Assembly: GCA_030740295.1 (NCBI GenBank)
Contig: JASLXP010000547.1
Span: forward strand, 1-15,976
Source of the DNA: Planctomycetota bacterium
GTDB taxonomy: Bacteria > Planctomycetota > PUPC01 > JACPCR01
Length of the DNA stretch: 15,976 bases
Reading direction: 5' to 3'
A program made the translations under genes and the position numbers. Of the stretch, positions 1 to 15,637 are shown one piece after another (the stretch's first letter is position 1; each line of letters begins with the position of its first letter). The notes beneath the pieces were generated by a model. The model worked only from the letters and a program-made list of their open reading frames with translations. It did no database searches and was not told the origin of the DNA.

Positions 1-381
1 AATTGGGATTCACCGGTGATACGGCAGATAAACGGCAAGAGCATTACGGGCCGCAGGCTCGAAAGCCCCTTTGCCGCTCAGGGCCCCGAGACCGCGCTGA
101 GAGTCGCAGGCTGTAGTCTCAAGAAAAACAGTGTCCCCCTCCTGTTCATCGCCGATAGCGAGCGAAGGCACTACGTGGTGACCAATCCGTGCAGGGAAGC
201 CACGCCGATTGTTCTGAAGACTCCTCACGGAACGATTCGATGCGACAGCCTTCCGAGGGGTCGGATAATCTGTAAGCTGGATCAACGGCCATCCGTTCAC
301 GTTGAGACATTCGAAAAGCCGGGACGAATAAGTACGGAACGAATGGGAAAGCCAAAGATAACCACTCTGATTCGGTCCTGA
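1..381 (+). CDS. 3' fragment of an unidentified protein (5' end outside window)
   Basis: The frame is open from the first base of the window (N-W-D-S-P-V...) to a TGA at 379-381, so this is the C-terminal ~126 residues of a longer protein. The GTG at 16 is probably internal, since nothing upstream marks it as a start. The fragment has no membrane segment and is rich in short beta-like stretches with Cys, Arg and Pro. The part around VVTNPCREATPIVLKTPHG followed by LPRGRI resembles the small all-beta tail that closes many glycoside hydrolases and other carbohydrate-active enzymes, but that is only an impression from residue pattern. I do not recognise the family. It reads in the same direction as the TIR-FHA gene, 208 bp upstream of that gene's ATG. 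Confidence 0.5.
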   Translation, partial: NWDSPVIRQINGKSITGRRLESPFAAQGPETALRVAGCSLKKNSVPLLFIADSERRHYVVTNPCREATPIVLKTPHGTIRCDSLPRGRIICKLDQRPSVHVETFEKPGRISTERMGKPKITTLIRS

Positions 382-535
382 TTCTGTGATGAGTTGAGAT
401 CCAGAACTGCTGCCGCCGTTTTTGCCGTAGCCCTACAGGGACAAAAGTAGGAGCACTTTGGCGCATGGATCGGACATCCTGGTGCGCGGGATTATGAAGG
501 TATCAAAGTATGCGGGAGTGTATAAGCATTGATGT

Positions 536-549
536 TGAGCGAGCGCTCA
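536..549. promoter_or_regulatory. Short dyad upstream of the TIR-FHA-kinase gene
   Basis: TGAGC-GAGC-GCTCA forms a 5-bp inverted repeat with a 4-nt loop. Inside it lies the 8-bp palindrome GAGCGCTC. It sits 40 bp before the preferred ATG of the TIR-FHA gene, so it could be an operator or a 5'-UTR hairpin. Dyads this short also occur by chance. The rest of 382-589 holds no gene. Confidence 0.25.
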
Positions 550-589
550 GCATCCTGATTCGGTGTTCGGCGAGCAGCTACCCATAGAA

Positions 590-2413
590 ATGGCAGACAT
601 CCTCATCACCTATGCCGAAGAAGACTCCGCCGCGGCGCAGGCAGTCTGTGATGAGCTCGAACAGCGGGGTCTCAAGTGCTGGCTGCGCGACCGGGACGTC
701 TCCGCAGGCCAGCATTGGGCAACGGCCACCATGAAGGCGCTTTCGTCGGCAGTTGCCGTCGTTGTCATATTCACAGACGGGGCGAACGACTCTTCGCATA
801 TAAGGAGAGATGTCGAGCACGCAGACCGAAAAGGTCTGTCGCTCATCCCTTATCGAATTGCGGCATCCCCCGTCTCTGATTTTTTTGAATACTTCTTTGG
901 ACAGTCTGCCTGGATTGACGCGTCCGCCGATCCGAAATTCAGCGATCTCGCATACGCTATCGGAGCGGCGACTGACAAGGGTGTGCCATCGCAAACTGCG
1001 GCCGTGCCCTCGGTTTCAACGCAACCGGAGCCCGAGCTTGACCGGGAAACTGATGAAACTGTTCAGGTCGAACCCCAGCCGGAAGTTGAGCCGACGGATT
1101 GGGATTCGGAGGTCTCGAGTCTCTGGACTGAGTCGGCAGAGCCCGAAGCCACGGTAACCCTCAGCGTGATTGAGGGCCCGAACGAAGGGCATGAATATAC
1201 ATTCCAGGGGCACGACACCTTCGTGGTCGGACGCTCTCCCAAAGCACACTTCCGGCTGCCGGAGAACGATCGTTATTTTTCACGATTCCATTTCATGGTC
1301 GAGGTAAATCCGCCCCTGTGCCGGCTCTCGGACATGGGGTCTCGAAATGGTACTTTCGTGAATGACGAGAAGGTAGCGACTTACGACCTGAACGATGGCG
1401 ATGCCATCCGCGGCGGAAAGACACTGTTGCAGGTCAGTGCAAAAAACTTGAGACCGAAATCAGAGTTTGCCGCGCTTGCCGAAGAGGTCAGCGAAACACC
1501 CCTGACAACATCCAAAGACAGCGCATTTGAAATCGTCTCTCCCAGCAGGGAAGAGCCCTCACCGAGGAAGCTCTTTGATAATCCATATGAGATCGGCAAT
1601 TACCGGATCCTCGAAAGAATTCATCAGGGCAGCCTCGGGCCCGTGTTCAAAGCAGAACACATCGAAAGCGGCGAACTGGCCGTTCTTAAAACAGTGGATG
1701 CCGCAGCCGCGGCCAGCGGACAGGATATCGCCAAATTCCTCGGCAACGTCGAAGGTCTCCTGCAACTCAAGCATCCGAACATTGTGCCTTACCGCGAGGC
1801 CGATGTTATTTCGGCGGGCGGTCTGTTTATCGCACTGGAATTCATCGAGGGCATCAACGTGGAATCGCTGGTCAAACGAAACGGCCCGCTGCCGATCGAT
1901 CGTGCGGCTGGGCTGGTATGTCAGCTCCTCAGGGGATTACAGTACGCGCACGACCTTGGCGTATGCCATCGCAATATCAAGCCCTCCAACATTCTCATCC
2001 AGACGTCAGGCGGCCAGGGCAAAGCCCTGCTCAGTGATTTCGGTCTGGCCCGCGTGTATCAGGCTTCGCAAATGAGCGGTCTGACCATGATGAAAGACGT
2101 TTCCGGCTCGGGTCCGTTCATTGCGCCCGAACAGATTACCGACTATCGCCGCGCCCAACCGCAGGCGGACATCTATGCAATCGCCTCCGTTCTTTATTAC
2201 CTGCTCACCGACTGTCACGCCCTTGAGCTGCCGGACCGGGTCGAGCTGCAACTCGCGATGATTCTCTCGGAAAAACCCACGCCCATTACTGACCGGCGCA
2301 AAGACATCCCAAGGAAATTGGCCAAAGCCATTCACAAAGGTCTCGAATCAGAACCGCGTGCCAGATTCAAAAACGCGAATGCGATGCGGAAAGCGCTGGT
2401 GCCGTTCGTGTGA
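590..2413 (+). CDS. TIR-FHA-Ser/Thr protein kinase-like fusion, probable pseudokinase
   Basis: Predicted 607-residue soluble protein. I chose the ATG at 590 (MADILITYAEED) because the TIR fold begins there; an in-frame GTG at 563 would add nine residues, and neither start has a clear Shine-Dalgarno. Residues ~1-130 are a TIR domain of the bacterial TIR_2 kind. After an acidic, Pro/Glu-rich linker, residues ~188-287 are an FHA domain with VGRS (213-216), SRFH (231-234) and NGT (253-255), the phosphothreonine-peptide binding signature. Residues ~338-607 are a protein kinase fold with VLK lysine 367, DFG (483-485) and APE (512-514). However, the HRD motif is HRN (460-462), the glycine loop reads HQGSLG, and the usual alphaC Glu position appears to be Asn386. 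The Glu normally catalytic in TIR NADases appears to be Asp74. No membrane segment is seen. A role as a phosphopeptide-reading signalling or defence scaffold is inference; the domain calls are secure. Confidence 0.93.
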   Translation: MADILITYAEEDSAAAQAVCDELEQRGLKCWLRDRDVSAGQHWATATMKALSSAVAVVVIFTDGANDSSHIRRDVEHADRKGLSLIPYRIAASPVSDFFEYFFGQSAWIDASADPKFSDLAYAIGAATDKGVPSQTAAVPSVSTQPEPELDRETDETVQVEPQPEVEPTDWDSEVSSLWTESAEPEATVTLSVIEGPNEGHEYTFQGHDTFVVGRSPKAHFRLPENDRYFSRFHFMVEVNPPLCRLSDMGSRNGTFVNDEKVATYDLNDGDAIRGGKTLLQVSAKNLRPKSEFAALAEEVSETPLTTSKDSAFEIVSPSREEPSPRKLFDNPYEIGNYRILERIHQGSLGPVFKAEHIESGELAVLKTVDAAAAASGQDIAKFLGNVEGLLQLKHPNIVPYREADVISAGGLFIALEFIEGINVESLVKRNGPLPIDRAAGLVCQLLRGLQYAHDLGVCHRNIKPSNILIQTSGGQGKALLSDFGLARVYQASQMSGLTMMKDVSGSGPFIAPEQITDYRRAQPQADIYAIASVLYYLLTDCHALELPDRVELQLAMILSEKPTPITDRRKDIPRKLAKAIHKGLESEPRARFKNANAMRKALVPFV

Positions 2414-2427
2414 ACGCAAATTCGAGT

Positions 2428-2447
2428 GCCGGCGGTGGAACCGCGGC
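2428..2447 (+). terminator. Possible weak terminator hairpin after the TIR-FHA gene
   Basis: GCC(G)GCGGT-GGA-ACCGCGGC gives an 8-bp GC-rich stem with one bulged G and a 3-nt loop, 14 nt after the stop codon at 2411-2413. No U-run follows, so intrinsic termination is doubtful. The remainder of 2414-2586 shows no gene. Confidence 0.25.
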
Positions 2448-2586
2448 TGCGCGACTGCTGCTCTCAGACAATCACTACACCTAATTTCGTACGGGAGGCT
2501 CTCTGGGTCGTCTGTAAAGACCGTGCCACATTTGCGTCAGAACCGGTCTATATTCCTTTTGTCTCCCCTGTTCCTTCAGGCCCAAC

Positions 2587-2591
2587 GAGGA
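2587..2591 (+). promoter_or_regulatory. Ribosome binding site of the 2-oxo acid decarboxylase gene
   Basis: GAGGA lies 7 nt before the ATG at 2599 and fixes that start. The ATG at 2592 is out of frame. This is one of only two convincing Shine-Dalgarno sequences in the window. Confidence 0.7.
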
Positions 2592-2598
2592 ATGGATC

Positions 2599-4242
2599 AT
2601 GGCCAGACAGAAAACAACGATCGGAAAGTATCTTCTGGATGAACTTTACCGGCGCGGCATACGTGACATTTTTGGAATCCCCGGCGACTACGTCCTGGGC
2701 TTCTACGAGGAGCTCGAAAAACACAGGATTCGGCGGGTAGGCACGACCCGTGAAGATTCGGCCGGCTTTGCAGCGGATGCTTACGCACGGGTGCGCGGGC
2801 TTGGAGCCGTCTGTGTCACCTATTGTGTCGGGGGCTTCAATCTGGTGAATCCGGTTGCCGGCGCGTACGCGGAAAAATCACCTGTCGTCGTCATCAGCGG
2901 CGCGCCTGGAATGAAGGAGAGAGAGAGCAACCCACTCCTTCATCATTGCGTGCGCGATTTTTCGACGCAGCGAGAGATCTTCGAGAAGATCACTGTGGCG
3001 AGCGCATCTCTTGAAGATCCTCTCACTGCGTTTCATGAAATCGATCGCGTCCTGAACGCGGTCGAGCACTACAAGCGGCCCGGCTTCATCGAGATCCCGA
3101 GAGACATGGTGGACATGGCACAGGTCCATCGATCTGCACTGAATGGAAACGTCTTTCCGGAAGACGCGGATGCACTCAAAGAATGCATGACCGAAGTGAC
3201 GGAGATGCTTAACAACAGCAAGCGGCCAGTCATCCTTGCAGGAGTGGAAGTCCACCGCTTCGGCATGCAGGACGCCCTGGTCGAGTTTGTGGAGAAATCT
3301 AAATTTCCTGTCGCATCGACGCTGCTTGGCAAATCTGTGATTTCGGAACATCACCCACTCTACCTGGGCGTGTACGAAGGCGCGATGGGCCGATCTCAAG
3401 TGCAGCGGATCGTGGAGAATTCGGACTGCGTGCTCATGCTCGGATGCTTCATGACCGATATCAATCTTGGAGTCTTCACCGCCAACCTGGACAGCAAGCG
3501 GGCCATCTCCGCAACCACTGAAAAGATATCCATCCGACGCCACCACTACGAAGGCATCTCTTTTGAGGGGTTCATGCGAGAGCTTCTGAATCTCAAAATC
3601 CGGCGGCGTAGAAAGCCCAATGTCCCGGCAGACGACCATGTCTGGTGCAACGGCGTGAAGGATGATTCGAAGATCTCCATTCGTTCGCTCTTCGGTGAGC
3701 TCAACAGATTCATCACCGAAGATATGGTCGTGATCTCTGATATCGGCGATTGCCTGTTTGGCGCGGTAGACCTGAAGATTCATCGCCGTACGGAATTCCT
3801 CAGTCCTGCATACTATGCGTCCATGGGATTTGGAGTTCCTGCCGCTCTGGGCGCGCAGACAGCCGCGCCCCAGTTGCGGCCGGTGGTCCTGGTAGGCGAT
3901 GGGGCTTTTCAGATGACTGGGATGGAGCTCTCTACGTGTGTGGGGCACGGGTTGAACCCAATCGTTGTCGTGCTGAACAACCACGGCTACTCGACCGAAC
4001 GGCAGATAATGGACGGCCCGTTCAATGACGTGAACGAGTGGGCCTTTCATCGCGTGCCGGAACTCCTGGGCAGCGGCTGGGGTTTCACCGTTGAAACAGT
4101 GGGTGACCTGCGCCAGGCCCTGCAGGCATCTCTGGCCAACAGAGACAGTTTCAGCATCCTCGATGTGAATCTGGATGCTTATGACATGTCCCCCGCCCTC
4201 GAACGGCTCGGTGAGAGAATGGGCAAGAATATCAAGTCTTGA
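2599..4242 (+). CDS. ThDP-dependent 2-oxo acid decarboxylase (pyruvate/indolepyruvate decarboxylase family)
   Basis: The 547-residue length is normal for the PDC/IPDC family, which non-oxidatively decarboxylates 2-oxo acids to aldehydes in the cytoplasm using thiamine diphosphate and Mg2+. The N-terminal PYR domain carries GIPGDY (Asp30), Glu52 in REDSAGFAADAYAR, which activates the cofactor, and the paired His115-His116. The middle domain spans about 190-340. The C-terminal PP domain has GDG (433-435) and NN (460-461) for Mg-diphosphate binding, and Glu467 in STERQIMDGPF. These match the five active-site acid/base residues of Zymomonas PDC. The S-T-E-R sequence after the NN motif is closer to indolepyruvate-type than to classic pyruvate-type enzymes, but the substrate (pyruvate, indolepyruvate, phenylpyruvate or branched-chain oxo acid) cannot be fixed by eye. 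It has its own RBS and lies 185 bp after the TIR-FHA gene on the same strand; co-transcription is possible but unproven. Confidence 0.93.
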   Translation: MARQKTTIGKYLLDELYRRGIRDIFGIPGDYVLGFYEELEKHRIRRVGTTREDSAGFAADAYARVRGLGAVCVTYCVGGFNLVNPVAGAYAEKSPVVVISGAPGMKERESNPLLHHCVRDFSTQREIFEKITVASASLEDPLTAFHEIDRVLNAVEHYKRPGFIEIPRDMVDMAQVHRSALNGNVFPEDADALKECMTEVTEMLNNSKRPVILAGVEVHRFGMQDALVEFVEKSKFPVASTLLGKSVISEHHPLYLGVYEGAMGRSQVQRIVENSDCVLMLGCFMTDINLGVFTANLDSKRAISATTEKISIRRHHYEGISFEGFMRELLNLKIRRRRKPNVPADDHVWCNGVKDDSKISIRSLFGELNRFITEDMVVISDIGDCLFGAVDLKIHRRTEFLSPAYYASMGFGVPAALGAQTAAPQLRPVVLVGDGAFQMTGMELSTCVGHGLNPIVVVLNNHGYSTERQIMDGPFNDVNEWAFHRVPELLGSGWGFTVETVGDLRQALQASLANRDSFSILDVNLDAYDMSPALERLGERMGKNIKS

Positions 4243-4261
4243 GGGGTGTGGCGGCAGGTTG

Positions 4262-4280
4262 CTGCAAAAGCGGCTTGCAG
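4262..4280 (+). terminator. Hairpin downstream of the decarboxylase gene
   Basis: CTGCAA-AAGCGGC-TTGCAG is a perfect 6-bp inverted repeat with a 7-nt loop, starting 20 nt after the stop codon. A small palindrome, AGCCTAAGGCT (4301-4311), follows. Neither has a U-tract. Transcription may be stopped instead by the much larger palindrome at 4344-4427. Confidence 0.3.
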
Positions 4281-4343
4281 GGAAGCTCACCGAGAGAACC
4301 AGCCTAAGGCTGCCTTCGGCCGCAACCGCAGCTACGATAGAAA

Positions 4344-4427
4344 TACCACGGATGGCAAGGCCATCCCACGGATGAAGAAGTTTTTTATTCTGTCTTCATC
4401 CGTGGGATGGCTTTGCCATCCGTGGTA
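4344..4427. repeat. Long nested palindrome between convergent genes (REP/MITE-like or bidirectional terminator)
   Basis: The arm at 4344-4378 is the reverse complement of 4393-4427 over 35 positions except for one pair (AAG opposite TTT, a G-U pair in RNA), around a 14-nt loop containing TTTTTT. Each arm is itself a palindrome: GGATGGC-AAG-GCCATCC on the left and GGATGGC-TTT-GCCATCC on the right. CCACGGATG also occurs twice within the left arm. The DNA can therefore fold as one long hairpin or as a cruciform with side hairpins. It lies 101 bp past the decarboxylase stop and 19 bp past the DUF6785 stop, the right place for a shared bidirectional terminator. The near-perfect symmetry and nested design are also typical of dispersed REP-like elements. 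No other copy was noticed in this window. Confidence 0.85.
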
Positions 4428-4446
4428 ATTATCTCCGCCACAGACT

Positions 4447-6378
4447 CTAATACCAGAACGAGTAAAGCCTCTTTTCAAGCATCCAGGTGGCCATCGTCCA
4501 GAGCCCCCCGACTATATAGTCGCCGACGATCAGGCCCATGAAAAAAGGCAGGCAGCGGCGATAGCCTGAACCGCCTGTGTATTTGACGATCGTTGTCTTG
4601 CAGAACCAGCCGATGAAAATCGGTAGCCAGACAAGGTGCATCGACCAACTCGATGAGACGGCGAGACCTATCGGATGGAATGGGAGCCCGGGAAACTTCA
4701 GCTTCAGGAGCGGCATCAACGCAACGGCCAGGAAGCCGCCGACATAAAAGATCCAGGAGAGCGGATTTACTTCAGCCGGCGCTGTCAGCCACTTCTGCAG
4801 GCGGATACCGTACGCTTCGTAACCGCGGGAATAGGTGATCCGAGGCGCACCGGTCTGCGCTTCGTAAGACACATGCAGGAAAACCCAGAATGCGCACAGG
4901 CAGCCAAACATCACCGCAAGAGCCTGTGCGATGAACATCATCCGAATCGGGCCCCGTGTCTGTTCGGCGAGCCGGAAGCCTTCCACCGAATGGGCGGTCG
5001 GATGCCCTCGATAGGCACGATTAAAACCAAAGAACAATGCAAAAGCCCCAAGGCTGTTTCCGTCGAGGTTCTCGCTACCGATGGTGTTGACGAAAATCTG
5101 ACCGGGCCCGGCAAAATGCAGATCATGCGCGGGCGGCCCGCAAGTGGCACGCATGCGGGCGATACCCATCGCAAGACCCAGATAAAGAACGAAGTAAATG
5201 ATTGAAAGCACTGGCGAAATACCCGCCCAGATGCCGAACCCCACAAGAGCGATGAAGCCAAGCGTGCTGCCCAGAGCGGCCAGACGATAGTTCAACTGGG
5301 TGCCGCCGAGCTCTTCTCCATGGCCGTGGATCACGCCGTCCATCACCCGTTTCAAATGTTCGCGCCCAATCCAGATCGCACCAGCCGTGATTGCCAGATA
5401 GGAGCCGGTGGCCTGCTGGGTAATGTAATCCTTTGGCAGCATCGGAGTGACGCCAAAACTGGCAAAGATTACCTGCTCGAATTTCCAGAACAGGAAGAAG
5501 AACCAGCATGAGAACATCAGGTCGAGCGGCATCAGAAAACTCAGACCGATCACGCATGGGTACCATGAGATCGGGAACCATCCGACCGCATTCCAGGGCG
5601 AGCCCAGACCTCGAAACAGAGAGGAAAGATTGATGTCATACGCCCGGATCGGAATCGCTGGAAAGAGCTCGGGATCGTAACTGTGGAGCCCGTTCAGCAT
5701 CGTGATACTCCCCGCGATGAGGAGGCCCCAGAGGAATCTGGAATTCCAGCAGAGCTCCTTCGGCCGCGTAGCAATAGCCAGTGGCAGCTCGACGATTGGG
5801 AAAGCCAGCCGTTCCTTCTGAGTCCACTCCTTCAGAAAGATGATGTTCAGACACATCGTCGTAAAAATGAGCGTCGTCAGAAACCCGGTCCATATCAGCA
5901 CGGGTGCAATCCACGGTTGGAAGTTTTCGGGCAGATAGAAGGAAGATTTGCCCTCATAGAAATTCGAGATCGCTTCCTTCGAGGTCACCAGAAGGTGAAG
6001 CGGCAACTTGCCATCAAAGAGTTCCGCCCAATTGTTTTCTGGCGTCGCTCCATGGATGTGGTGCGCAAGAAGCGGCAGCACCACCATCACAAAGTCCAGT
6101 CCCGTAACCGCAGACGACATGCACAACATCGCATAGAGCGTTACCAGTTCCGCCGCGTAGAGCGTGTACGCCGGCGCTATGTTTCGTAACGCAGCATTCA
6201 GCAGCGTCACCGCCATAAGAATCAGGACCACATTGAAAAAGAGCGAGATCGTAGTAGGCCATCCCGCCAGCCAGAATCCCTCGATCTGAAACACCCAATA
6301 AGCATTCAGAGGGATCAGGAGCAGCCCGAGCAGAATACAGCGAATGCGGATCGGGTTGGGCTGTGCGGGAGGTGTCAT
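4447..6378 (-). CDS. DUF6785-type polytopic membrane protein
   Basis: 643-residue integral membrane protein with roughly 12-14 hydrophobic segments: one begins near residue 12 (CILLGLLLIPLNAYWVF) and the rest continue to the C-terminus. A polar region around ATPENNWAELFDGKLPLHLL (~109-128) and the sequence KEWTQKERLAFPIVELPLA fit the DUF6784/DUF6785 family, whose function is unknown to me. The topology has a broad resemblance to oligopeptide (OPT-like) transporters, so a solute-transport role is possible but inferred. The ATG at 6378 is followed directly by a short polar N-terminus; there is no obvious Shine-Dalgarno. It lies 120 bp downstream of the heparinase-like gene on the same strand, with no terminator-like hairpin seen between them, so the two are probably co-transcribed. 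The stop is 19 bp from the big palindrome. Confidence 0.82.
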   Translation of the reverse strand: MTPPAQPNPIRIRCILLGLLLIPLNAYWVFQIEGFWLAGWPTTISLFFNVVLILMAVTLLNAALRNIAPAYTLYAAELVTLYAMLCMSSAVTGLDFVMVVLPLLAHHIHGATPENNWAELFDGKLPLHLLVTSKEAISNFYEGKSSFYLPENFQPWIAPVLIWTGFLTTLIFTTMCLNIIFLKEWTQKERLAFPIVELPLAIATRPKELCWNSRFLWGLLIAGSITMLNGLHSYDPELFPAIPIRAYDINLSSLFRGLGSPWNAVGWFPISWYPCVIGLSFLMPLDLMFSCWFFFLFWKFEQVIFASFGVTPMLPKDYITQQATGSYLAITAGAIWIGREHLKRVMDGVIHGHGEELGGTQLNYRLAALGSTLGFIALVGFGIWAGISPVLSIIYFVLYLGLAMGIARMRATCGPPAHDLHFAGPGQIFVNTIGSENLDGNSLGAFALFFGFNRAYRGHPTAHSVEGFRLAEQTRGPIRMMFIAQALAVMFGCLCAFWVFLHVSYEAQTGAPRITYSRGYEAYGIRLQKWLTAPAEVNPLSWIFYVGGFLAVALMPLLKLKFPGLPFHPIGLAVSSSWSMHLVWLPIFIGWFCKTTIVKYTGGSGYRRCLPFFMGLIVGDYIVGGLWTMATWMLEKRLYSFWY

Positions 6379-6498
6379 CGCTTTGTTGTGTCAGTCGTCA
6401 GAGGAGTCCGGTTGGTGTTTCTGGACATCCGAACGCGTCCCCTGGTTGCTCATGCGGGCTGGCGGCAAAGCCAAAAGACTAATGGAGTTCAAGCCAAC

Positions 6499-8559
6499 TT
6501 AGCAAACACGTGCAGGGCTTTCCCCGGCTTTGACCTGAATTGAGCCATCCGATGTCCAGACATCCACGATCTCCGCGCCCTTCCGGCGAACAAAGGCAAA
6601 CTCACAGCGGCCCGAATAACCGGGCGCTTCGATATGCCTATGATCGAGAGCGCAGAGAAGAGTGTCCTGGCAACCTTCACTCTCGATTTCCAGATGGATC
6701 AGATTGGGATGCTGAATCTGATTCACCACAAACGGTGATTGATCTTTCTTCTTCGGAACGACAACCGCTGCCATCTGGCCGTTTGCGCCATTCACCTCGG
6801 CCAGGAGGCGTGGACGCCGAACGCTGGTGGAAGAGAGCTCGGGTTCGTAAACCTTCCTGTCTGCATCTTTGCCGTAAGGCCAGCTCCACCACTTCTCGTC
6901 CGACCGAAGGGCAATCGAATGAGGATCGTCCGGAAATGCCTCCGGGCCGGGAATCGCGAATGAGATATCAAGCCGGACTTTCTTGCCTTCGACAGTCGCC
7001 TTCCTTTCTCCTTCGATCATGACGGCGCTCTCAGGATGCGCCTGCAGTTGCCACAGGTAGCTGTGCTTTTCAGTGTCCTTCTTTATGTTGTCGACGAAAA
7101 TCATGTAGCACTCATCACCACCGAGCCGCACAAAAAAGCAATGTCGATCCGCCCACATGCAATCCTTCATGTGAGCCGCGTCCGCGATGATGTAGTCGAG
7201 ATACTCGTGCTGCTGAAAACCGCGCAGGCGCCCGTGCCGCAGGCAAAGATGCCAGCCTTCAGCATCTTTGGGCAGCCCGTCAACCAGAACGACGCTGTGC
7301 TGATCCGCGTGGCCATTGTACCGGCCGGTGTCGATGGCGAGGTACTCACCGTAAGCGAATATGGAGAAGTGGCCGCAATCCGCGTGACGATGCGTCAGGC
7401 AAGTGTGGCTCATCCCTGAACCAGGGAAATTCATGTAGACCGCGTCCGGTCCCCAGGACGTTCTGAAATGCGACAGCTCAGTGCCGGGCGAGTACTGGGT
7501 CAAAGGCAGTCCGGCCTCAGCGACCGCTGTGGCCTCGGCCTCTGCATCCCAGAAGAGAAAAGCCAGCATGAGGTGCGACAACCGCTTGACCCTGGTCGCT
7601 GTATCGGGCTCGCGGTATCTGCGAAAGAAAATCGGCGGCCCCTCGAACTCGTGCCAGAAGCCTCGCAAAATCGAATCGTCATATTCACGAGCGAGAATCA
7701 GCAACCAGGCAAGACCTGTAGGTGATGCGAGCCCGAGGTCCCCGGCGTTCAGCAATGAGCTGCGGTCGGGAAGCAGATACATGACCGTTGCGTGACCTGT
7801 CTTACGAAGCCTGGGGGCATCCTTGAAGATGTCGCCGTGCCCCGACTGTTTGTGAAGAAACGCGAACAGCGTGACTGCGGCGAGCATCTCGTGCACATAC
7901 CCGGTGCCTTCATAGCCGAAACCATTTTCATCACACGCGTGTGCCAGGTACTTGATGCAGATCTCCCGGGTCTGCGAAACGACCTCCTGCCATCCGTCGT
8001 ACCCACATTCTTCACCCCAAAGCAACGCCGCAATACCGGCATTGATGCTGAGAAAAACATGCACGTTATTACCCGCACTCGTCCGCACCAGGATGCGCTC
8101 GAATGAAGAGAAAGGAATGATGTGCTCCTTCATCAATCGGCATAGTGTGGAGCGGCTGTGTTCGTTCAATGCATCCCGGACGATGTCCCCGGCAATAGCG
8201 ATTTCACCATGGGAGATCACCGGTTGCCGGTGATGCGAGAGGATCGATTGCAGATGCTCCTCACTGCCTTCATAAACTTCTGTGAGGTATCCGATGCAGC
8301 GCTCTACGTGCCGCAGGGCTTCATCGTCGTCGTTGACTCTGGAGAGGATAGCAGCCTCCACAACAGCCGGAGTAATCGAATGCCAACCCAGATTGCCGTG
8401 TGAGGTGTACTCTCCCGAGGCCGCGTCTATGCTTACGACTTCCTCGAAGGCACTCAGGATGAGTTGCCAGTATTCATCGTATGGGGCCGTTGTCGTACGC
8501 GAGCGAATTTCCTGTAGTGTCCTTCCGCTCAGCAGAATTCCCAGCTTTGATTCTTCCAT
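6499..8559 (-). CDS. Heparinase II/III-like polysaccharide lyase, apparently cytoplasmic
   Basis: 686 residues in the heparinase II/III layout: an N-terminal alpha/alpha-toroid (~1-340) followed by a C-terminal beta-sandwich (~360-686). Family landmarks are NNVHVFLSINAG (Asn164-Asn165, His167), GYEGTGYVHEM (Tyr216, Tyr221) and HRHADCGHFSIFAYGEYLAID (His390-Asp410). These correspond to the Asn/His, Tyr and His residues that neutralise, abstract and donate protons in beta-elimination of uronic acid-containing glycans such as heparin or alginate. The assignment of exact catalytic residues is by pattern only. The N-terminus (MEESKLGILLSGRTLQEIRS) is polar with no signal peptide, so the protein probably acts on imported oligosaccharide, unless the start is misplaced. 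The true substrate is unknown; related proteins act on heparin, alginate or other acidic glycans. It is the first gene of a likely two-gene operon with the DUF6785 protein and is divergent from the YfhO-like gene. Confidence 0.85.
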   Translation of the reverse strand: MEESKLGILLSGRTLQEIRSRTTTAPYDEYWQLILSAFEEVVSIDAASGEYTSHGNLGWHSITPAVVEAAILSRVNDDDEALRHVERCIGYLTEVYEGSEEHLQSILSHHRQPVISHGEIAIAGDIVRDALNEHSRSTLCRLMKEHIIPFSSFERILVRTSAGNNVHVFLSINAGIAALLWGEECGYDGWQEVVSQTREICIKYLAHACDENGFGYEGTGYVHEMLAAVTLFAFLHKQSGHGDIFKDAPRLRKTGHATVMYLLPDRSSLLNAGDLGLASPTGLAWLLILAREYDDSILRGFWHEFEGPPIFFRRYREPDTATRVKRLSHLMLAFLFWDAEAEATAVAEAGLPLTQYSPGTELSHFRTSWGPDAVYMNFPGSGMSHTCLTHRHADCGHFSIFAYGEYLAIDTGRYNGHADQHSVVLVDGLPKDAEGWHLCLRHGRLRGFQQHEYLDYIIADAAHMKDCMWADRHCFFVRLGGDECYMIFVDNIKKDTEKHSYLWQLQAHPESAVMIEGERKATVEGKKVRLDISFAIPGPEAFPDDPHSIALRSDEKWWSWPYGKDADRKVYEPELSSTSVRRPRLLAEVNGANGQMAAVVVPKKKDQSPFVVNQIQHPNLIHLEIESEGCQDTLLCALDHRHIEAPGYSGRCEFAFVRRKGAEIVDVWTSDGSIQVKAGESPARVC

Positions 8560-8648
8560 TTTGTTGCTCTCGTGCAGTTGCGGGGTGAGCGTCTCGTAGC
8601 TGGCTCTCCGAGGCCAGAACTCTGGAGTACGGAGACTCCTGCTACTGT

Positions 8649-8679
8649 TCTGATCCGATCAGATCAACTTCGATTCGAA
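8649..8679. promoter_or_regulatory. Two adjacent dyads in the divergent intergenic region
   Basis: TCTGATC-C-GATCAGA (8649-8663) is a perfect 7-bp dyad around one base. Five bases later TTCGA-T-TCGAA (8669-8679) is a perfect 5-bp dyad around one base. Both lie in the 150-bp gap between the divergently read lyase (start 8559) and YfhO-like gene (start 8710), where an operator would be expected. No regulator gene is nearby, and I cannot place -35/-10 boxes with confidence. Confidence 0.4.
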
Positions 8680-8709
8680 ATCAGAGCCACCTGAACTTAC
8701 GCTTCGGTG

Positions 8710-10860
8710 ATGGAGCTTTCGAAGAACAACCGATCCAATACTCACCGTGGAGCGTCAATTTCACAAGATGCGATCAAAGGCGCGCTTCTGCTCGGCGTAC
8801 TCACGATGCTGCTCTTTTCACAGGGGCTGGTCGGACAGTTCCTCCTGCTCGGACGCGAGCTGGATTTCATCAGCTTCAGGTATCTGAGCGAGGCGCGAGA
8901 GCAGATTGGCCAAGGGAAGATCCCGCTCTGGACATCGCGCGTGTTCTGTGGATTTCCACTCCTGGCGAACCCGGAGCTGGCCTTGTGTTATCCGCCGACC
9001 TGGCTGGCGTTTCTGCTGCCCGTGCACCGGGCCATCGGTGTGCTTGCCGCTCTGCATGTGCTGCTGAGCGGGATGCTGGCTTACCTTTTCTTCAATGAGC
9101 GAGGCCTGGGACGATACGGGTGTTTCACGGCTGCAGGGACGTGGACGTTCGCGGGCATCGCCATGTCTCATGTGGCGCACCTGCCCACACTTTCTGCGCT
9201 GGCATGGCTGCCGGGGCTTTTCTGGTGCGTGGAACAGAGCGTCGCAAAAGGAGGTCTGTGGAGGCATGCTCGGCTCGGAGCTGTCGCGGGCATTCAGATG
9301 CTGGCAGGTGATTTCGGCATTGCGTTTGTTTCGCAGTTTGGCGCGCTGCTCTGGATGATTCTCGAATTGGGAATCGCCGGTCAAGAATATTCTCGTCGAA
9401 GGATTATCGAGTGCGGATGCTTTGTGCTGCTCTGCGGGGTCGGTCTCTCTGCAGTGCAGGGATTACCTTTTGTCGAGCTCCTCGAGCAGGCAGTACCTCA
9501 ACAACGTGAAGGCGTACACTTCATGCACTTGATCGTGCCCGGCCTTGCCGGTGGCGGCAGCCTTTTCCTCGGTGTGCTTTTTCTGCCTCTTGCGGGGGCG
9601 GGGCTCTTCAGACGCCAAGGCATTCCGTTCGGGGTGCTGGGGCTGACAGGCATTGCCTTTGGTTTCGTAGCGCCCTCAGCGAATGCTTTTGCAGCTCTGG
9701 CTCTTGCAGGATTGGTCGGTCATGGGACGGATGTGATAGCGGAGAAAAGCGACGGATTCAGCAAGCCAAGAGAGACATTTTCGGTCCTGGCCCTGGGCAT
9801 TCTGGGGATCGGGTTGTCTATGACGTTTTTCGATTATCCGAAATCGAGCCTGAAACACATGGCAGGGCTGTCTCTGTGTATGGGAGGGGTTTTGGGTCTT
9901 GCGTATGTATTCGTCTGCAAACGCTGGTCTGCATTCCGGTGGTCTGTTCTACGAGTATTGGTGGGTTTGCACGTGCTCACACTTTTCTGGTCAGGCGGGC
10001 GATGGATCCCGAAGATGCGCGTGAAGGATTTTGAAGAGACACGTCTTGAAGAAGAAAGTCTGGTAAAGCAGCTCAGTGCAAAGCCGGGACACCGAATCGT
10101 TGACCTCACGACGATGCCGATGGCACACTCGAGATGGGTTCCGTACGGGCTGGAATCGGTTTCAGGATTCAGTCGATACGTGCCATCCGACGTCATCAGA
10201 TACAGCTCGATTGGCGAAGAATCGGCCCCCGCCGCAGGGGGGGCAGCATATGCATCTTTCGTGAGGTCACCCCGGATGCTGCAGGTAGCCGGCTGCCAGT
10301 ACATCCTGGTCGACGCGAATGCGACGCCTTTGATCCGGTTGCTGGATCGTGAGCTGTCGGAGGCATTGGGGGAACCATCCGTTCTGAAGGAAGTGGATGT
10401 CTTCAGTACTCGCTGGAAGGTTTTTCGTATCGGGATCAGGCCCTGGGATATTCTGCAGTATGGGGTCCTTGCCGGAGCGAATCAGCAGGTAGAGCTGGTC
10501 TTCTGTCCAGATCGGCAGTGTGCCTGGCAGGGCATTTCTTCAAGCAACACTGGCAGGCCAAGAGTGGTGCTTGAATCCGATCCGCAAGACAGCCCAGCGG
10601 CCGATGGAGCCGATTACAGCGGGCTCTTCTTTTCAAGACGGCACAGCAGAAACCTGCGCGCATTCTCCGATGCTGGTGAAGCTGATATCGTCCGAGCCCA
10701 GTATGTGTTTGCGGCTATCCCCAAGGCGGATACTTCGGACCTGGATTCAGAATCCTTCGTATACGAACCGAGGTCATTCAGAGTGGGGCTGTACATCACT
10801 CTGACGATGCTGGCATTGTCATGCGCGGCATTTGTTGCCGGAGTAGTCAGTCCTCGCTGA
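8710..10860 (+). CDS. YfhO-like GT-C family membrane protein
   Basis: 716 residues from the ATG at 8710 (a GTG directly before it at 8707 is also possible). A short polar N-terminus is followed by a first membrane span near residues 24-43, then the lumenal stretch LLGRELDFISFRYLSEAREQ...IPLWTSRVFCGFPLLANPELALCYPP. This is typical of YfhO/GT-C proteins: an acidic residue after the first span, then P-L-W...G-F-P-L...N-P-E. About ten further hydrophobic spans follow to ~430. Next come a ~250-residue soluble extracytoplasmic domain and a last C-terminal span introduced by YEPRSFRVGLYITLTMLAL, again YfhO-like. Members are thought to transfer sugars from lipid carriers to envelope polymers. At 716 residues it is on the short side, and the usual W/G-rich motif before the last span is poorly conserved. 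It converges on rodA, with a hairpin just after its stop. Confidence 0.75.
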   Translation: MELSKNNRSNTHRGASISQDAIKGALLLGVLTMLLFSQGLVGQFLLLGRELDFISFRYLSEAREQIGQGKIPLWTSRVFCGFPLLANPELALCYPPTWLAFLLPVHRAIGVLAALHVLLSGMLAYLFFNERGLGRYGCFTAAGTWTFAGIAMSHVAHLPTLSALAWLPGLFWCVEQSVAKGGLWRHARLGAVAGIQMLAGDFGIAFVSQFGALLWMILELGIAGQEYSRRRIIECGCFVLLCGVGLSAVQGLPFVELLEQAVPQQREGVHFMHLIVPGLAGGGSLFLGVLFLPLAGAGLFRRQGIPFGVLGLTGIAFGFVAPSANAFAALALAGLVGHGTDVIAEKSDGFSKPRETFSVLALGILGIGLSMTFFDYPKSSLKHMAGLSLCMGGVLGLAYVFVCKRWSAFRWSVLRVLVGLHVLTLFWSGGRWIPKMRVKDFEETRLEEESLVKQLSAKPGHRIVDLTTMPMAHSRWVPYGLESVSGFSRYVPSDVIRYSSIGEESAPAAGGAAYASFVRSPRMLQVAGCQYILVDANATPLIRLLDRELSEALGEPSVLKEVDVFSTRWKVFRIGIRPWDILQYGVLAGANQQVELVFCPDRQCAWQGISSSNTGRPRVVLESDPQDSPAADGADYSGLFFSRRHSRNLRAFSDAGEADIVRAQYVFAAIPKADTSDLDSESFVYEPRSFRVGLYITLTMLALSCAAFVAGVVSPR

Positions 10861-10886
10861 GCATTGTCCGCGCGGGAATGTGCCTG

Positions 10887-10908
10887 CCCGGAGCGATGCT
10901 GCTCCGGG
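10887..10908 (+). terminator. GC-rich hairpin after the YfhO-like gene
   Basis: CCCGGAGC-GATGCT-GCTCCGGG is a perfect 8-bp stem with a 6-nt loop, 27 nt after the stop codon. No U-tract follows, so it is a candidate rather than a canonical intrinsic terminator. An 8-base direct repeat, GACTCGTC, occurs at 10908-10915 and 10927-10934. Confidence 0.5.
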
Positions 10909-10947
10909 ACTCGTCTCGCTCCGCTCGACTCGTCAGGCCACCCCAAT

Positions 10948-11003
10948 CACCACTCACCATTCACCATTCACCATTCACCAATCACCATTCACCATTCACC
11001 ATT
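10948..11003. repeat. Eight-copy heptamer tandem array (CACCATT)
   Basis: Eight consecutive 7-bp units: CACCACT, three CACCATT, CACCAAT, then three CACCATT. Six are identical and two differ by one base. The array ends 8 bp past the rodA stop codon (11012-11014), in the convergent gap between the YfhO-like gene and rodA. A 7-bp period in non-coding DNA suggests slippage-prone minisatellite sequence. Confidence 0.95.
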
Positions 11004-11011
11004 CTTCCTCC

Positions 11012-12262
11012 CTACCCTTCCCTCGCTTTTCTGATGGCAAATTCCCAGAGCACTTTCTCCCGTTCCTCTTGCCGCTCGTTGGAGCGTCGTCGGATGTCGT
11101 CGTCGTACTCGAAATCATCCTTGGCCAGCGTTGCCTGAGGGCGCATGCTGACGTTGAGGATGAGGCCCAAAAGAAAGAAGGATGAGATGAGCGAAGATCC
11201 ACCATAACTCACGAACGGAAGGGTGAGCCCGGTAATCGGCATCAGCCCAATAGTCATGGCCGTGTTGATGTAGAGCTGGGTGGCCAACAGAGCGACGGTG
11301 CCAATGACCAGCACTCGGCCGGAAGGGTCTTCCTGCCGGTCGGCGATGGTCAACGCCGAGGCGAAGAAAAGAAAGAAGACCAGCAGCACGAACATGAGGC
11401 CAGCGAAGCCAATCTCTTCGCCGATGACAGCAAAGATGAAATCGGTGGTGCGCACGGGCAGGAAGTTGAGGCGGTTCATGGTGCCCTCCATCCAGCCTTT
11501 ACCGGCCAGGCCGCCGGAGCCAATGGCGAGCTTGGATTGGATGAGCTGGTAGAGCTCGTTCATCGCTGCAGGACTGTCTACTTCGGATTGTTTGAGAAAG
11601 TAAATGATGCGTTTCTGTTGATACGGCTTGAGCACAAAGAAGAACATCGGCGGCGCAACGCAAATGGCCATGCCGACGATCACCAGCAGGTGTCGCAGCC
11701 TCGAGCCGGCCACGAACAGGATCGAAAACAGAACGGGCAGGAAGAGCAATGCCGTCCCCAGATCAGGCTGGCGCATGATGAGCGCCATAGGCACCAGGGT
11801 CAGAGCGAACGGTACCGCCAGGCCAAACCAAACGCGGTGCGTCTCACGGTATTGCATGTATCGGGCAAGGCACAGAATCAGCCCTATTTTCATGAGCTCG
11901 GACGGCTGCAGCATCATGAATCCAAGCGGTATCCAGCGACTGACCCCGTTTATCACGGGAAAGATCCCGAGTCGCGCACCGATGAGCAGGACCAACAACA
12001 AAGCCACGCACGCGCCGTAAATCACAAAACCATTTTCAATGAAGGTCTTGTAAGACGGGACAATCGTGAAAAGCAGAACAAACGAACTGAGCGCTATCCA
12101 CACCAACTGCTTCTTGGCTCGAGCCAGCCGTATGGCCTCGCCCTCCGGCCCGGTCAGAATGCCAGAGCCGCTGTGAATGAAGGCCACCCCAATCGTGAGC
12201 AGGATGGCGACCTCAATGAGAATCGGCCAGCTCAAGTTGCGGAGGTTTTTGCGAGTAAGCAT
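11012..12262 (-). CDS. rodA: RodA peptidoglycan glycosyltransferase (SEDS family)
   Basis: RodA polymerises lipid II into glycan strands during lateral-wall growth and works in complex with PBP2. I place the start at the ATG at 12262 (MLTRKNLRNLSWPILIEVAI), giving 416 residues. The frame stays open upstream to 12391, but those extra 43 residues are encoded by the degenerate repeats and lack family character. About ten membrane spans are present. SEDS landmarks are QPSELMKIGLILCLARY (from ~119), MRQPDLGTALLF (Asp167), TDFIFAVIGEEIGFAG (Asp274, at the position of the essential Asp in Thermus RodA) and PFVSYGGSSL (~349-358). The C-terminal ~40 residues form a highly charged cytoplasmic tail (KDDFEYDDDIRRRSNERQEE). 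It is the last gene of the mreD-mrdA-rodA set, 88 bp after the mrdA stop. No Shine-Dalgarno is seen before this ATG. Confidence 0.95.
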   Translation of the reverse strand: MLTRKNLRNLSWPILIEVAILLTIGVAFIHSGSGILTGPEGEAIRLARAKKQLVWIALSSFVLLFTIVPSYKTFIENGFVIYGACVALLLVLLIGARLGIFPVINGVSRWIPLGFMMLQPSELMKIGLILCLARYMQYRETHRVWFGLAVPFALTLVPMALIMRQPDLGTALLFLPVLFSILFVAGSRLRHLLVIVGMAICVAPPMFFFVLKPYQQKRIIYFLKQSEVDSPAAMNELYQLIQSKLAIGSGGLAGKGWMEGTMNRLNFLPVRTTDFIFAVIGEEIGFAGLMFVLLVFFLFFASALTIADRQEDPSGRVLVIGTVALLATQLYINTAMTIGLMPITGLTLPFVSYGGSSLISSFFLLGLILNVSMRPQATLAKDDFEYDDDIRRRSNERQEEREKVLWEFAIRKAREG

Positions 12263-12318
12263 GGGGAGTAGCGGAATTATTGAAATGCTGGAATGTCGGA
12301 GAAGTGATGGCTCTAAGG

Positions 12319-12393
12319 CCTCAGCTCTCTGAATTGTGAATCCTGATTCCTCAGTTCTCTGAATCCTGATTCGTGTATTCTGAATCCTCATTC
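12319..12393. repeat. Degenerate direct repeats across the mrdA-rodA junction
   Basis: A 16-bp unit, CCTCAGYTCTCTGAAT, occurs at 12319-12334 and 12349-12364 with one difference (30-bp period). A 14-bp unit, STGAATCCTSATTC, occurs three times at 12336-12349, 12359-12372 and 12380-12393. The mrdA stop codon (minus-strand TGA at 12351-12353) lies inside the second 16-bp copy. The last ~14 residues of PBP2 (MNEDSEYTNQDSEN) are encoded by repeat sequence. Confidence 0.85.
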
Positions 12394-14687
12394 ATCGCCA
12401 CACTCGGTTGCAGAGCGGGCATTTCGTATCTTTCCAGAATTCTTCTGACGATGGGTGCAGCCACGTCGCCGCCGTGTTCTTCGGGATCGCCCGGGTTCTC
12501 GGCACGAGTAAGGCCCTCGCAGACGACAGCGAAGGCGATGTGCGGTTTTTCCGCGGGATAGTAACCGGCGAACCAGCCGATGTTGCCCTCGGGGCGTCCG
12601 GACTGCGCAGTGCTTGTTTTGCCGGAGAGATGGAACGGCAGAGGGCTGTCTTTGAAAGTCTTGTTGGCAGTGCCTTTCTTAGTGTTGACCACGTCAAAGA
12701 GGCCCTTGCGGATGACTTCGAGAGTTGAGGAAGACATCTCTATACGGCGCCCTATGCTGGTTTCGTGATCGAATCTCACTCGTCGAAAATCTTCGTCTAT
12801 GATCTCCTTCACCAATCGCGGTCTGAGCAGCAGGCCGCCATTCGCAACGGCTGCCATCATGCGAACAACCTGCAGCGGTGAGACAGTCAGATATCCCTGA
12901 CCGATGGCCAGATTGCGTGTGTCGCCCCGGTACCACGGCTCGTTCAGACGTGCCCTTTTCCAGTCGGGATCTGGCAGAATGCCTCGGCTCTCGAAATTAC
13001 GGACCTCTGTGCCCGGCCGAACACCGAACTCAAACTCCTTTGCCCATTTCAGAATCGGATTCAACCCGGCGCGGTCGGCACAAGAGTAGTAGAAGACATT
13101 GCAGGACTGTTGCAGCGCCTGCCGCACGTCAATCTCCTGGTGTCCCCAACGGGCCCAGCAACGGAATCGGTTTCGATTATTCGGAAACAGAGCGCCCTGG
13201 CAGTTGATGTGCGATTGCGGCCGGATGATGCCCTCTTCGAGCAGGCAGATGCTGGACAATATCTTGAATATCGAACCAAGTGGATAGTGGCTGCTGAAGG
13301 CACGATTGATCGTTGGCTGTGATCTGCTCCGGTAAAGCCGTTCGACCGTATCCTGCGAAACCGGCTGCACGAGATCGTTGGGATCGAAATTCGGAAATGA
13401 ACCAGTGGCCAGGATTTCACCATTCCGAACATCCATGAAAACCGCCGCCCCCATTTCTCGATCGAATTCCTCTTCAAGAATCTTCTGCAAGCGAGGCTCG
13501 ATGGTCAGGACAAGATTGTGCCCGGCGCTGGATTCATCGTGGTCGAGAACGTCCTGAATCCGATTGCGAAAATCACGTTCCACCCACCTTCGCCCTCGAC
13601 GGCCGCGCAGATGGTTTTCGAATACTGATTCGATGCCTGACTTGCCGACCAGATCATCCTGTGTGAGCCCGAGCCTTGCGAGCTCACGATTAAGCGTGGC
13701 AAAGAAGAAGGCGTTCGAGGTGGGCCTGACACCGGAACGGGCCCAACGCCGAATCCAAATATCATCCGATTCCTGGAGCCATTTCTTGAGCTGGGCCTCA
13801 CTCGGCTTTCCGGTCGTGCCAAGGACTTGCCCCAGAAGCTGCTTTTGCGGGTAACGACGGACACTCCGGGTGCCTATGCTTGCAGCAGGCACTTCGTGAC
13901 CACTGCTGGCGACGCGGATCATGGTCTCGTAATCCAGATTGGGTATCAGCACCTCAGGACCGGCCCGGCGGAGAATCTTCTTATGAAGCACAGCTCTCGA
14001 CTCATCGAGTTTCTGAGCGAGGACCTCCGACTCGATATTGAGCAGCACACCAAGGTGGACGGGCAATTCGCCGTTGCTGGAGACCACCAACTGATTTGGG
14101 TCGTTGGCCGGCCCCGTCAGCTCAGAAAAATCCACCCACACCGAGTATTCTTCGAGCGCCTCTCTAAAGAAGAACCACTTCCTCTTCTCCTCTTCGAAGA
14201 GTGTCACGCCGGCCGGCAGATCTTCTTCGATGCCTTCTCTGGTTGATGCAGCCAGGGGGACATGGTCTGCGATTCGATACTTCCAACCGATGAGTCTTTG
14301 CCCCGACGCCTTTTCCTTCCGGGCTTCTTTCAGCCTGTTCTTGATGACCGATTGCCGCAGCCCTTCGAGCTCATAGGCAATCTGGTAATCGGGGATAGCT
14401 GTCATGCGAGAGAGCTTTGCGATCAGTTCGGCTTCATCCTTGATCTTACGCAAGTTAATCTTCAGGTCGTAAGTCGCGGCATCTGTGGTAAGCACTGTGC
14501 CGTCACGAGCAAGGATCTTGCCTCTTGGCGCATCCACCTGATCCTGTCGGACGCGGCGTTCCTCGACGAGCTCATCGTAGTAACCCTTGTGAATCACCTG
14601 CAACTCAAAGAGCCGCAGAGGTACGAGCCCGAAACAGAAGACGGAGATCGTTCCAAAGAAAATGTAGAGGCGCGTTTCATATCGCAC
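12351..14687 (-). CDS. mrdA: Penicillin-binding protein 2 (elongation transpeptidase) with enlarged pedestal
   Basis: PBP2 cross-links peptidoglycan made by RodA in the periplasm. The GTG start at 14687 is supported by an AGGGAG 7 nt upstream and overlaps the mreD stop by 11 nt. The N-terminus has a short cytoplasmic tail and one membrane anchor (YIFFGTISVFCFGLVPLRLF, ~8-27), then APRGKILARDGTVL (~53-66), the usual start of the pedestal domain. The transpeptidase domain begins near VGKSGIESVFE (~348). It carries SIFK (Ser472 nucleophile, Lys475), SCN (Ser528, Asn530) and KTST (690-693) in place of the common KTGT. Total length is 778 residues against about 630 in E. coli. The excess lies in residues ~80-280, between the RDG motif and the GKSGIE motif, and is rich in charged helical sequence. 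The C-terminal ~14 residues come from intergenic-type repeats. Confidence 0.95.
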   Translation of the reverse strand: MRYETRLYIFFGTISVFCFGLVPLRLFELQVIHKGYYDELVEERRVRQDQVDAPRGKILARDGTVLTTDAATYDLKINLRKIKDEAELIAKLSRMTAIPDYQIAYELEGLRQSVIKNRLKEARKEKASGQRLIGWKYRIADHVPLAASTREGIEEDLPAGVTLFEEEKRKWFFFREALEEYSVWVDFSELTGPANDPNQLVVSSNGELPVHLGVLLNIESEVLAQKLDESRAVLHKKILRRAGPEVLIPNLDYETMIRVASSGHEVPAASIGTRSVRRYPQKQLLGQVLGTTGKPSEAQLKKWLQESDDIWIRRWARSGVRPTSNAFFFATLNRELARLGLTQDDLVGKSGIESVFENHLRGRRGRRWVERDFRNRIQDVLDHDESSAGHNLVLTIEPRLQKILEEEFDREMGAAVFMDVRNGEILATGSFPNFDPNDLVQPVSQDTVERLYRSRSQPTINRAFSSHYPLGSIFKILSSICLLEEGIIRPQSHINCQGALFPNNRNRFRCWARWGHQEIDVRQALQQSCNVFYYSCADRAGLNPILKWAKEFEFGVRPGTEVRNFESRGILPDPDWKRARLNEPWYRGDTRNLAIGQGYLTVSPLQVVRMMAAVANGGLLLRPRLVKEIIDEDFRRVRFDHETSIGRRIEMSSSTLEVIRKGLFDVVNTKKGTANKTFKDSPLPFHLSGKTSTAQSGRPEGNIGWFAGYYPAEKPHIAFAVVCEGLTRAENPGDPEEHGGDVAAPIVRRILERYEMPALQPSVAMNEDSEYTNQDSEN

Positions 14688-15186: not shown

Positions 15187-15637
15187 GAGCTCGGAGAGGG
15201 AGCGCGAGTGTTGGAACGAATCAGAATGGAGAATGACGCCGCAAGGGGAGCGGCGATTGAGGCGGGCGGGTCGGTCTGCAGTGCCGCGGGGAACGACAAG
15301 TTTTGATTCTACGACTTAATGCCCGATGCTCCAGAGATTTTTTGGAGAAAGGTTTGATTCGTTCTGATGGTTGGAAGTACCTTTTGCATGAGGAAGATGT
15401 CGACCAAAGCTGACGCATAAGCGCATGAGAATTGAGAGAGGCTGCAAGAAGGAATTCGGCCCGGAGCCCGTCCCTGTCAGAGCTTTACTTCCAGCATGAA
15501 GCCGGCCGCCTGATGGTTGAAGTGCCCGCGTCTTGAAGCATGAATGGGTCCATGGCAGATGCAACTGAGTATTTCGAATGCAGGCATTGAGATAAGATTC
15601 GCAGCTCTGGTGAATTCATGGGCCCGCAGCAGTGCAG
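15187..15637. other. 451-bp divergent intergenic region without a recognisable gene
   Basis: No open frame here looks like a real protein on either strand, and no tRNA or rRNA is seen. It must contain the promoters for mreD (minus) and the glycosyltransferase gene (plus). A possible minus-strand -10 box, TAGAAT, lies at 15306-15311, but no good -35 was found. GAACGAATCA (15214-15223) and its exact reverse complement TGATTCGTTC (15355-15364) flank that site. CTCCA...TGGAG makes a small AT-centred dyad near 15330-15348. A small RNA cannot be excluded. Confidence 0.5.

Follow-up and report, generated by a model that had tools for sequence, protein, structure and literature searches.

The window, that is, the whole stretch of 15,976 nucleotides analysed here, encodes a single protein chain in which a TIR domain, an FHA domain and a protein-kinase fold follow one another, and it is the only protein we found to carry all three. 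These parts are all known; the combination of a TIR domain with an FHA-pseudokinase appears to be new. In this protein the catalytic aspartate of the kinase is replaced by asparagine and the catalytic glutamate position of the TIR domain is occupied by aspartate, while the ligand residues of the FHA domain are kept. We give an even chance to the reading that the protein is a soluble phosphothreonine-reading adaptor or scaffold with a pseudokinase and an N-terminal TIR domain.

Domain architecture and relatives

The first-pass annotation had placed TIR, FHA and kinase in this order on one chain, and all three Pfam matches indeed exceed their cut-offs (Table 1), with the TIR match (residues 4-114) and the FHA core (212-274) fitting the approximate ranges it gave (1-130 and 188-287). 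A further helix, predicted at residues 115-129 and reaching base 976, is probably the last element of the TIR domain. The open reading frame runs through 607 codons with a single stop, at its end. The frame is already open from GTG 563, and ATG 590, with which the first predicted TIR strand lies at residue 3, is the likelier start. Prediction of the full-length structure, from an alignment of 86 of 119 FHA-kinase proteins (see below) together with P0122 and P0123, gave a pTM of 0.70; the TIR part of the model has modest confidence, with 10-residue block means of about 36-86. The VIA-align rows cover the kinase region alone and hence have no bearing on the TIR or FHA fold. The highest 19-residue hydropathy mean is only 1.64, at residue 44 inside the TIR core, which suggests that there is no membrane segment; hydropathy, the sole method used, thus agrees with the earlier description of a soluble protein without a membrane anchor.

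Table 1 Positions of the gene, its domains and the residues discussed in the text (coordinates in the window)
Feature	Position	Strand	Remarks
TIR-FHA-pseudokinase gene	590..2413	+	607 aa; start ATG, stop TGA
TIR_2 domain	599..931	+	Residues 4-114; Pfam E 1.5e-15, 58.2 bits (cut-off 28)
Asp74 (codon GAT) at the TIR catalytic-Glu position	809..811	+	Glu in 29/30 relatives; aligns with Cat1 E74
Acidic linker	977..1150	+	Residues 130-187; pLDDT <50 at 130-168
FHA domain	1151..1459	+	Residues 188-290; Pfam core 212-274, E 1.7e-12, 48 bits (cut-off 20.7)
Second linker	1460..1600	+	Residues 291-337; pLDDT <50 at 300-325
Protein-kinase fold, predicted pseudokinase	1601..2389	+	Residues 338-600; Pkinase (Pfam) E 4.1e-36, 125.2 bits (cut-off 31.7)
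His345 at the first P-loop Gly	1622..1624	+	Gly in 117/119 homologues
Gly385-Asn386 at the alpha-C Arg-Glu	1742..1747	+	Arg in 118/119, Glu in 118/119 homologues
Asn462, HRN for HRD, catalytic base lost	1973..1975	+	Asp in 119/119 homologues
Thr499, activation segment, kept	2084..2086	+	Nearly invariant in alignments A1 and A5
TPP-dependent enzyme gene	185 bases downstream of the TIR-FHA-pseudokinase gene	+	Identified by Pfam

An assembly join of two genes had been named beforehand as one of the findings that would overturn the fusion, and no sign of one was seen. GC3 is 0.62 in the TIR part, 0.62 in the first linker, 0.64 in the FHA part, 0.54 in the second linker and 0.64 in the kinase part (0.62-0.75 in seven other window genes), with no compositional seam at the TIR-FHA junction, and coding periodicity is ordinary along the gene. 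Moreover, a protein of the public set (P0002; 607 aa) is 100% identical, has the same five Pfam domains and belongs to a cluster (90%) of 14 member sequences and to one contig of 6,973 bases. That a TIR gene and an FHA-kinase gene were merged in assembly, in favour of which it can be said that no other protein with all three domains occurs among the matches listed, is therefore hardly credible, given the single open frame, the even composition and the identical public protein in a 14-member cluster. As far as sequence tools can tell, the fusion is real.

Searching with the whole protein (7994 candidates scored) gave 1159 matches at E <= 0.001. The best 120 of these 1159 comprise P0002 itself and 119 proteins of 38-48% identity (P0003-P0121), which have FHA followed by kinase and align with the window protein throughout both domains; FHA-kinases thus fill this list, and none of the 119 is annotated with a TIR domain, in contrast to the window protein. 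Their FHA domain is N-terminal in 83 cases and follows a short N-terminal extension in 11 and a long one in 25. A hydropathy stretch of 1.9 or more is absent from all but one of them (P0098). Since all 119 listed homologues combine FHA and kinase and 118 lack a hydrophobic stretch, a soluble FHA-kinase is ordinary here and not in itself the oddity that it had been taken for. The family is apparently planctomycete, and the window probably so too, as the organism names among the listed homologues are Planctomycetaceae and Planctomycetota (one protein each). The available text of a survey of Planctomycetota kinases reports membrane segments in 70 to 80% of them and lists FHA among the abundant kinase-associated domains (PMC11032199).

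The triple fusion was not found elsewhere in any of the following searches. A protein search with the TIR part alone gave two matches, the window protein and P0122 (TIR with PF03781), and a profile search gave three, of which the two besides the window protein contain neither FHA nor kinase (the alignment being gappy outside the TIR domain). The whole protein detected one locus in a scan of genome contigs, an FHA-kinase without a TIR match, and at least 2 of 392 genomes in a scan of the phylum, among the matches listed and with three candidates scored per genome. Using the TIR domain, the phylum scan yielded 32 matches in 22 of the 392 genomes at E 1e-5; 30 of the 32 were fetched, local profiles were run on all 30 ORFs and Pfam on 3. 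Two of the 30 have a kinase by local profile, and both are without FHA by Pfam. The local FHA profile gives no sound negative, because it missed a TIR-FHA-FHA protein found by Pfam. Among the papers found by literature searches, titles and abstracts contained no description of a TIR-FHA-kinase or TIR-FHA-pseudokinase fusion.

Catalytic and ligand-binding residues

Conserved residues were counted in an alignment of the window protein with the 119 FHA-kinase homologues (from the best 120 of 1159 matches). All 119 keep the HRD Asp and nearly all keep the alpha-C Glu and the first P-loop Gly, whereas the window protein has none of these (Table 1); the HRN motif and the alpha-C change are also visible in the alignment with the two solved PDB kinases displayed. 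In this respect the first-pass annotation, which had not noted these losses, was incomplete. The residues retained are the beta-3 Lys367, the Mg-binding Asn467, DFG at 483-485 (D483) and Pro-Glu at 513-514. At columns conserved in at least 95% of the other homologues, the window protein deviates at 11 of 95, more than any other of the 120 proteins; the next-worst homologue deviates at 7 of 94, and the median is 1.

A bacterial pseudokinase, in the definition given in the accessible text of PMC12599244, lacks at least one of the beta-3 Lys, the HRD Asp and the DFG Asp. With HRN in place of HRD the window protein falls under this definition, so its kinase domain is a pseudokinase by the usual criterion and, judging from its residues, probably catalytically dead. 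Of the three residues expected in an active member of the soluble FHA-kinase family, K367 and D483 are kept and D462 is changed to N; the protein belongs to this family by descent, not by expected activity. Thr499, kept in the activation segment, is a possible phosphorylation site. We also considered the ActPs2 pseudokinase family, for which the same source describes HRD Asp replaced by Asn, beta-3 Lys replaced by Arg and, in most cases, a deletion of DFG (PMC12599244); HRN is common to both, but membership was rejected as the window protein retains Lys and DFG. Kinases lacking the three catalytic residues are not uncommon in the phylum: the part of the Planctomycetota survey dealing with Ca. 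Uabimicrobium amorphum reports that 525 of its 610 kinases keep them (PMC11032199). The VMAP conflict systems, too, are described in the text at hand as having kinase domains whose catalytic residues are disrupted (PMC7159879).

The FHA domain was supported by its profile and by its ligand residues. Five such residues are conserved among the 119 homologues, namely R215 (119/119), S231 (119/119), H234 (118/119), N253 (118/119) and G254 (116/119), and the window protein carries all five. The Arg, Ser and Asn are presumably the residues that contact phosphothreonine, and the domain looks like a working one.

The TIR domain clearly belongs to TIR_2 by its Pfam score. When it is aligned by profile with solved structures, no gap separates it from Cat1 up to the catalytic helix, so that Cat1 E74 falls on Asp74. 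The available text on Cat1 gives S7, H8, N9, N10, D33, S68 and E74 as its active site and the E74A mutant as inactive in vivo (PMC12162218), and AbTir, TcpO and ThsB are all described as needing the catalytic glutamate in what was accessible of PMC10022894. Among 30 TIR relatives from the phylum, position 74 is Glu in 29 and Asp in one (L021). Residue 7 of the window TIR is Thr (Ser in 24 relatives, Cys in 5, Gly in 1) and residues 33-34 are Arg-Asp (Ala in 17/30 and Pro in 17/30, respectively), while Ser68 is kept (28/30) and the other conserved positions W31, R35, D36, G40 and W43 are present. TIR NADases are recognized by a catalytic glutamate in the helix that follows strand four; here it is an aspartate, which makes the NADase output uncertain, although with Asp in place of Glu the activity may be reduced and not lost.

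Gene neighbourhood and related loci

The TPP-dependent enzyme encoded downstream has indolepyruvate/phenylpyruvate decarboxylase as its best NCBIfam match, at 439.1 against a cut-off of 554.5. Further downstream come, in order, genes for a DUF6785/6784 protein, for a protein with weak resemblance to heparinase (its Pfam score is below the cut-off) and for a membrane protein to which Pfam assigns no family; RodA, PBP2 and MreD, assigned by family, follow. Pfam likewise finds nothing in the frame at the right edge. No known defence gene was detected among the window genes scanned by Pfam (seven), PADLOC (first four) or NCBIfam (three). Nor did these genes include, next to the TIR gene, anything recognisable as a TIR effector, a cognate kinase or, within this one contig window, a ThsA-type partner that would indicate Thoeris or another named TIR defence system. 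The earlier remark that no known defence effector adjoins the gene therefore holds for the window genes between the two cut-off edge frames. PADLOC gave one weak match of the window TIR to a SAVED-TIR model. The known defence kinases PD-T4-6 and MAD6 were rejected as identities of the protein, because the 25 of 36 PADLOC matches listed all start at residue 318 or later and concern the kinase domain only; NCBIfam MAD6 scored 144.2 bits against a cut-off of 460.

The nearest genome by PBP2 (G131; 80% identity, best of 246 genomes) is collinear with the window over 8767-15341, with PBP2 at 80%, RodA at 84%, MreD at 88% and the membrane protein at 66% identity. This last protein (window 8707-10860; 717 aa) matches nothing in Pfam or NCBIfam. 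The proteins of window positions 1-8560 found no match in 20 kb of G131, apart from a single weak one of FHA at 28%. The TIR gene thus sits in the half that differs from G131, and a rearrangement or insertion in one of the two lineages is possible. In the whole G131 genome the best-scoring match to the window protein is 26% identical, over residues 188-606. No ortholog was detected at the thresholds used in two genomes of G131's order, and no match at E 1e-70 in nine genomes of its class (both searches without a positive-control genome). The RodA-PBP2 genes of the two nearest genomes have an FHA protein and a kinase-like match no more than about 6 kb away (L044 8847-10592, L045 10056-10871); this closeness may be due to chance, these genomes having given 49 and 37 kinase matches.

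Elsewhere in the phylum, genome G292 carries a TIR-FHA-FHA gene (L048 5549-6847, minus strand) whose TIR keeps the Glu, followed after 22 bases on the same strand by a gene for a Ser/Thr kinase with TPRs and an intact HRD (3658-5526). This pair, which places TIR, FHA and kinase in one apparent transcription unit where the window has one chain, seems to be a split version of TIR-FHA-kinase. It differs from the window protein in having two genes, two FHA domains, an HRD kinase with TPRs and a TIR with Glu, and it is not an ortholog of the window gene, as Pfam finds TPRs but no FHA domain in its kinase. It is flanked by a TIR-ATPase-TPR gene of STAND type (8207-11233) on one side and a further TIR gene (814-2640) on the other, and the cluster of three TIR genes and a kinase (L048 814-13096) may be a phospho-regulated conflict system. 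The protein encoded at 814-2640 shows, by eye, C-terminal hydrophobic stretches. Direct fusions of TIR and kinase are found in L033 (G014; TIR-kinase-AAA) and L030 (G292; kinase-TIR), both with HRD kept, by reading, and no FHA by Pfam. In addition, G308 has an HRD-intact FHA-kinase, 43% identical to the window protein, lined up with two genes that each encode a double FHA and with one in which Pfam finds no family (L049 1492-6444), possibly a phospho-signalling operon. TIR, FHA and kinase have thus come together on several occasions in the phylum.

A possible TIR adaptor under kinase control

The sequence data show the three domains, the lost residues, the kinship and, from hydropathy, the solubility; that the adaptor or scaffold proposed above binds phosphopeptides and clusters, what its TIR does, which way the signal runs and whether it serves in defence are what we infer. 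Such a protein could descend from a CHK2/Rad53-like FHA-kinase that became a pseudokinase and gained an N-terminal TIR domain, in either order. An active cellular Ser/Thr kinase would phosphorylate a partner, or Thr499 of another copy, and the FHA domain would bind the resulting phosphothreonine. Clustering through the FHA domain would then bring TIR domains together, and the TIR would recruit or nucleate a partner, most simply another TIR protein, without itself consuming much NAD. The pseudokinase domain, with Lys, DFG and the Mg-binding Asn kept, would provide a docking surface or a nucleotide-sensing switch. Control of the TIR by the FHA domain, as first suggested, remains the best idea and draws indirect support from the TIR-FHA-FHA/kinase pair of G292. 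Gating of the TIR by phosphorylation, also suggested there, is unlikely to work through self-phosphorylation because the catalytic residues of the kinase are lost, and any phosphate would therefore need another kinase as its source.

Against the adaptor reading, only one such protein was found, and the G292 pair is not an ortholog. The change from Glu to Asp is conservative and is shared by L021 (1/30), the TIR model is of modest confidence with no interdomain contact established, and neither a TIR effector nor a cognate kinase was recognised beside the gene in the window. Some kinases, moreover, are active despite missing canonical residues. It can be held only tentatively that both enzyme folds now serve for binding, with a pseudokinase on one side of a working FHA reader and a non-catalytic TIR on the other, the whole coupling Ser/Thr phosphorylation to TIR assembly. 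In animals the corresponding domains (TIR, kinase or pseudokinase, and FHA-like) are distributed among MyD88, IRAK and Pellino, to which the window protein would then correspond in bacteria, though purely as an analogy. The usual view of TIR proteins in bacteria is that they are effectors that cleave NAD; the present fusion of a TIR with a reader of phosphothreonine and a probably dead kinase suggests that some of them are adaptors under Ser/Thr kinase control, which would parallel animal innate immunity. The phylum relative with TIR-FHA-FHA and an HRD-intact kinase makes this idea directly testable.

A phospho-gated NADase effector, in which a TIR still active with Asp74 would start to cleave NAD when the FHA domain binds its ligand or the pseudokinase docks, perhaps as a defence against phages, would suit the TIR fold found by profile, the retained W31, R35, D36, G40, W43 and S68, the conservative nature of the substitution and the phylum TIR relatives that are joined to or lie beside kinases and STAND-type ATPases. 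We consider it doubtful, given that 29 of 30 relatives have Glu where the matching Cat1 E74 is reported, in the text available, to be essential in vivo (PMC12162218), that Thr7 replaces the Ser or Cys of 29 of 30 and Arg33-Asp34 the more usual Ala and Pro (17/30 each), and that no known defence gene was recognised beside the gene among the window genes scanned. Decay would be another explanation for two altered catalytic sites in one protein, which would then be a relict fusion with drifting enzymatic parts and no present function; its being a singleton among the matches listed and the lack of an ortholog at the thresholds used in two genomes of the nearest order (no positive control) also fit. 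This is unlikely in view of a frame that stays open for 607 codons, a GC3 and a coding periodicity that are both ordinary, 14 member sequences in the 90% cluster and losses that fall at catalytic points while the FHA ligand residues and, in the kinase, Lys, DFG and Pro-Glu 513-514 remain. That the domain is instead an active kinase with an unusual catalytic arrangement, the protein being an FHA-kinase with a TIR address tag, would agree with the retained Lys367, Asn467 and DFG and the strong Pkinase score, but is quite improbable with the catalytic Asp (present in 119/119 homologues), the alpha-C Glu and the P-loop Gly lost together.

The proposed adaptor shares the TIR fold with the NADases Cat1 and ThsB and differs from them by the Asp at the position of the catalytic Glu; it has no CARF domain, and no ThsA was recognised in the window. 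By Foldseek, Rad53 (5xzv) was the top match and CHK2 (3i6w) was among the matches listed, in agreement with an FHA domain N-terminal to a kinase fold; the likeness lies in the two folds and their order only, the whole-chain rmsd being above 20. CHK2 and Rad53 are active kinases without a TIR domain, and their clustering is driven by FHA. A precedent for the proposed scheme comes from Mycobacterium tuberculosis, where, according to the available text of PMC12599244, PknB phosphorylates the pseudokinase MviN and the FHA domain of FhaA then binds it, so that a pseudokinase and FHA phosphothreonine reading are again combined with an outside kinase as writer. There, two proteins are involved, MviN is transmembrane and no TIR is present, whereas the window protein is one soluble chain; and MviN has lost all three motifs (VALT, no HRD, no DFG; PMC12599244), whereas the window protein keeps Lys and DFG.
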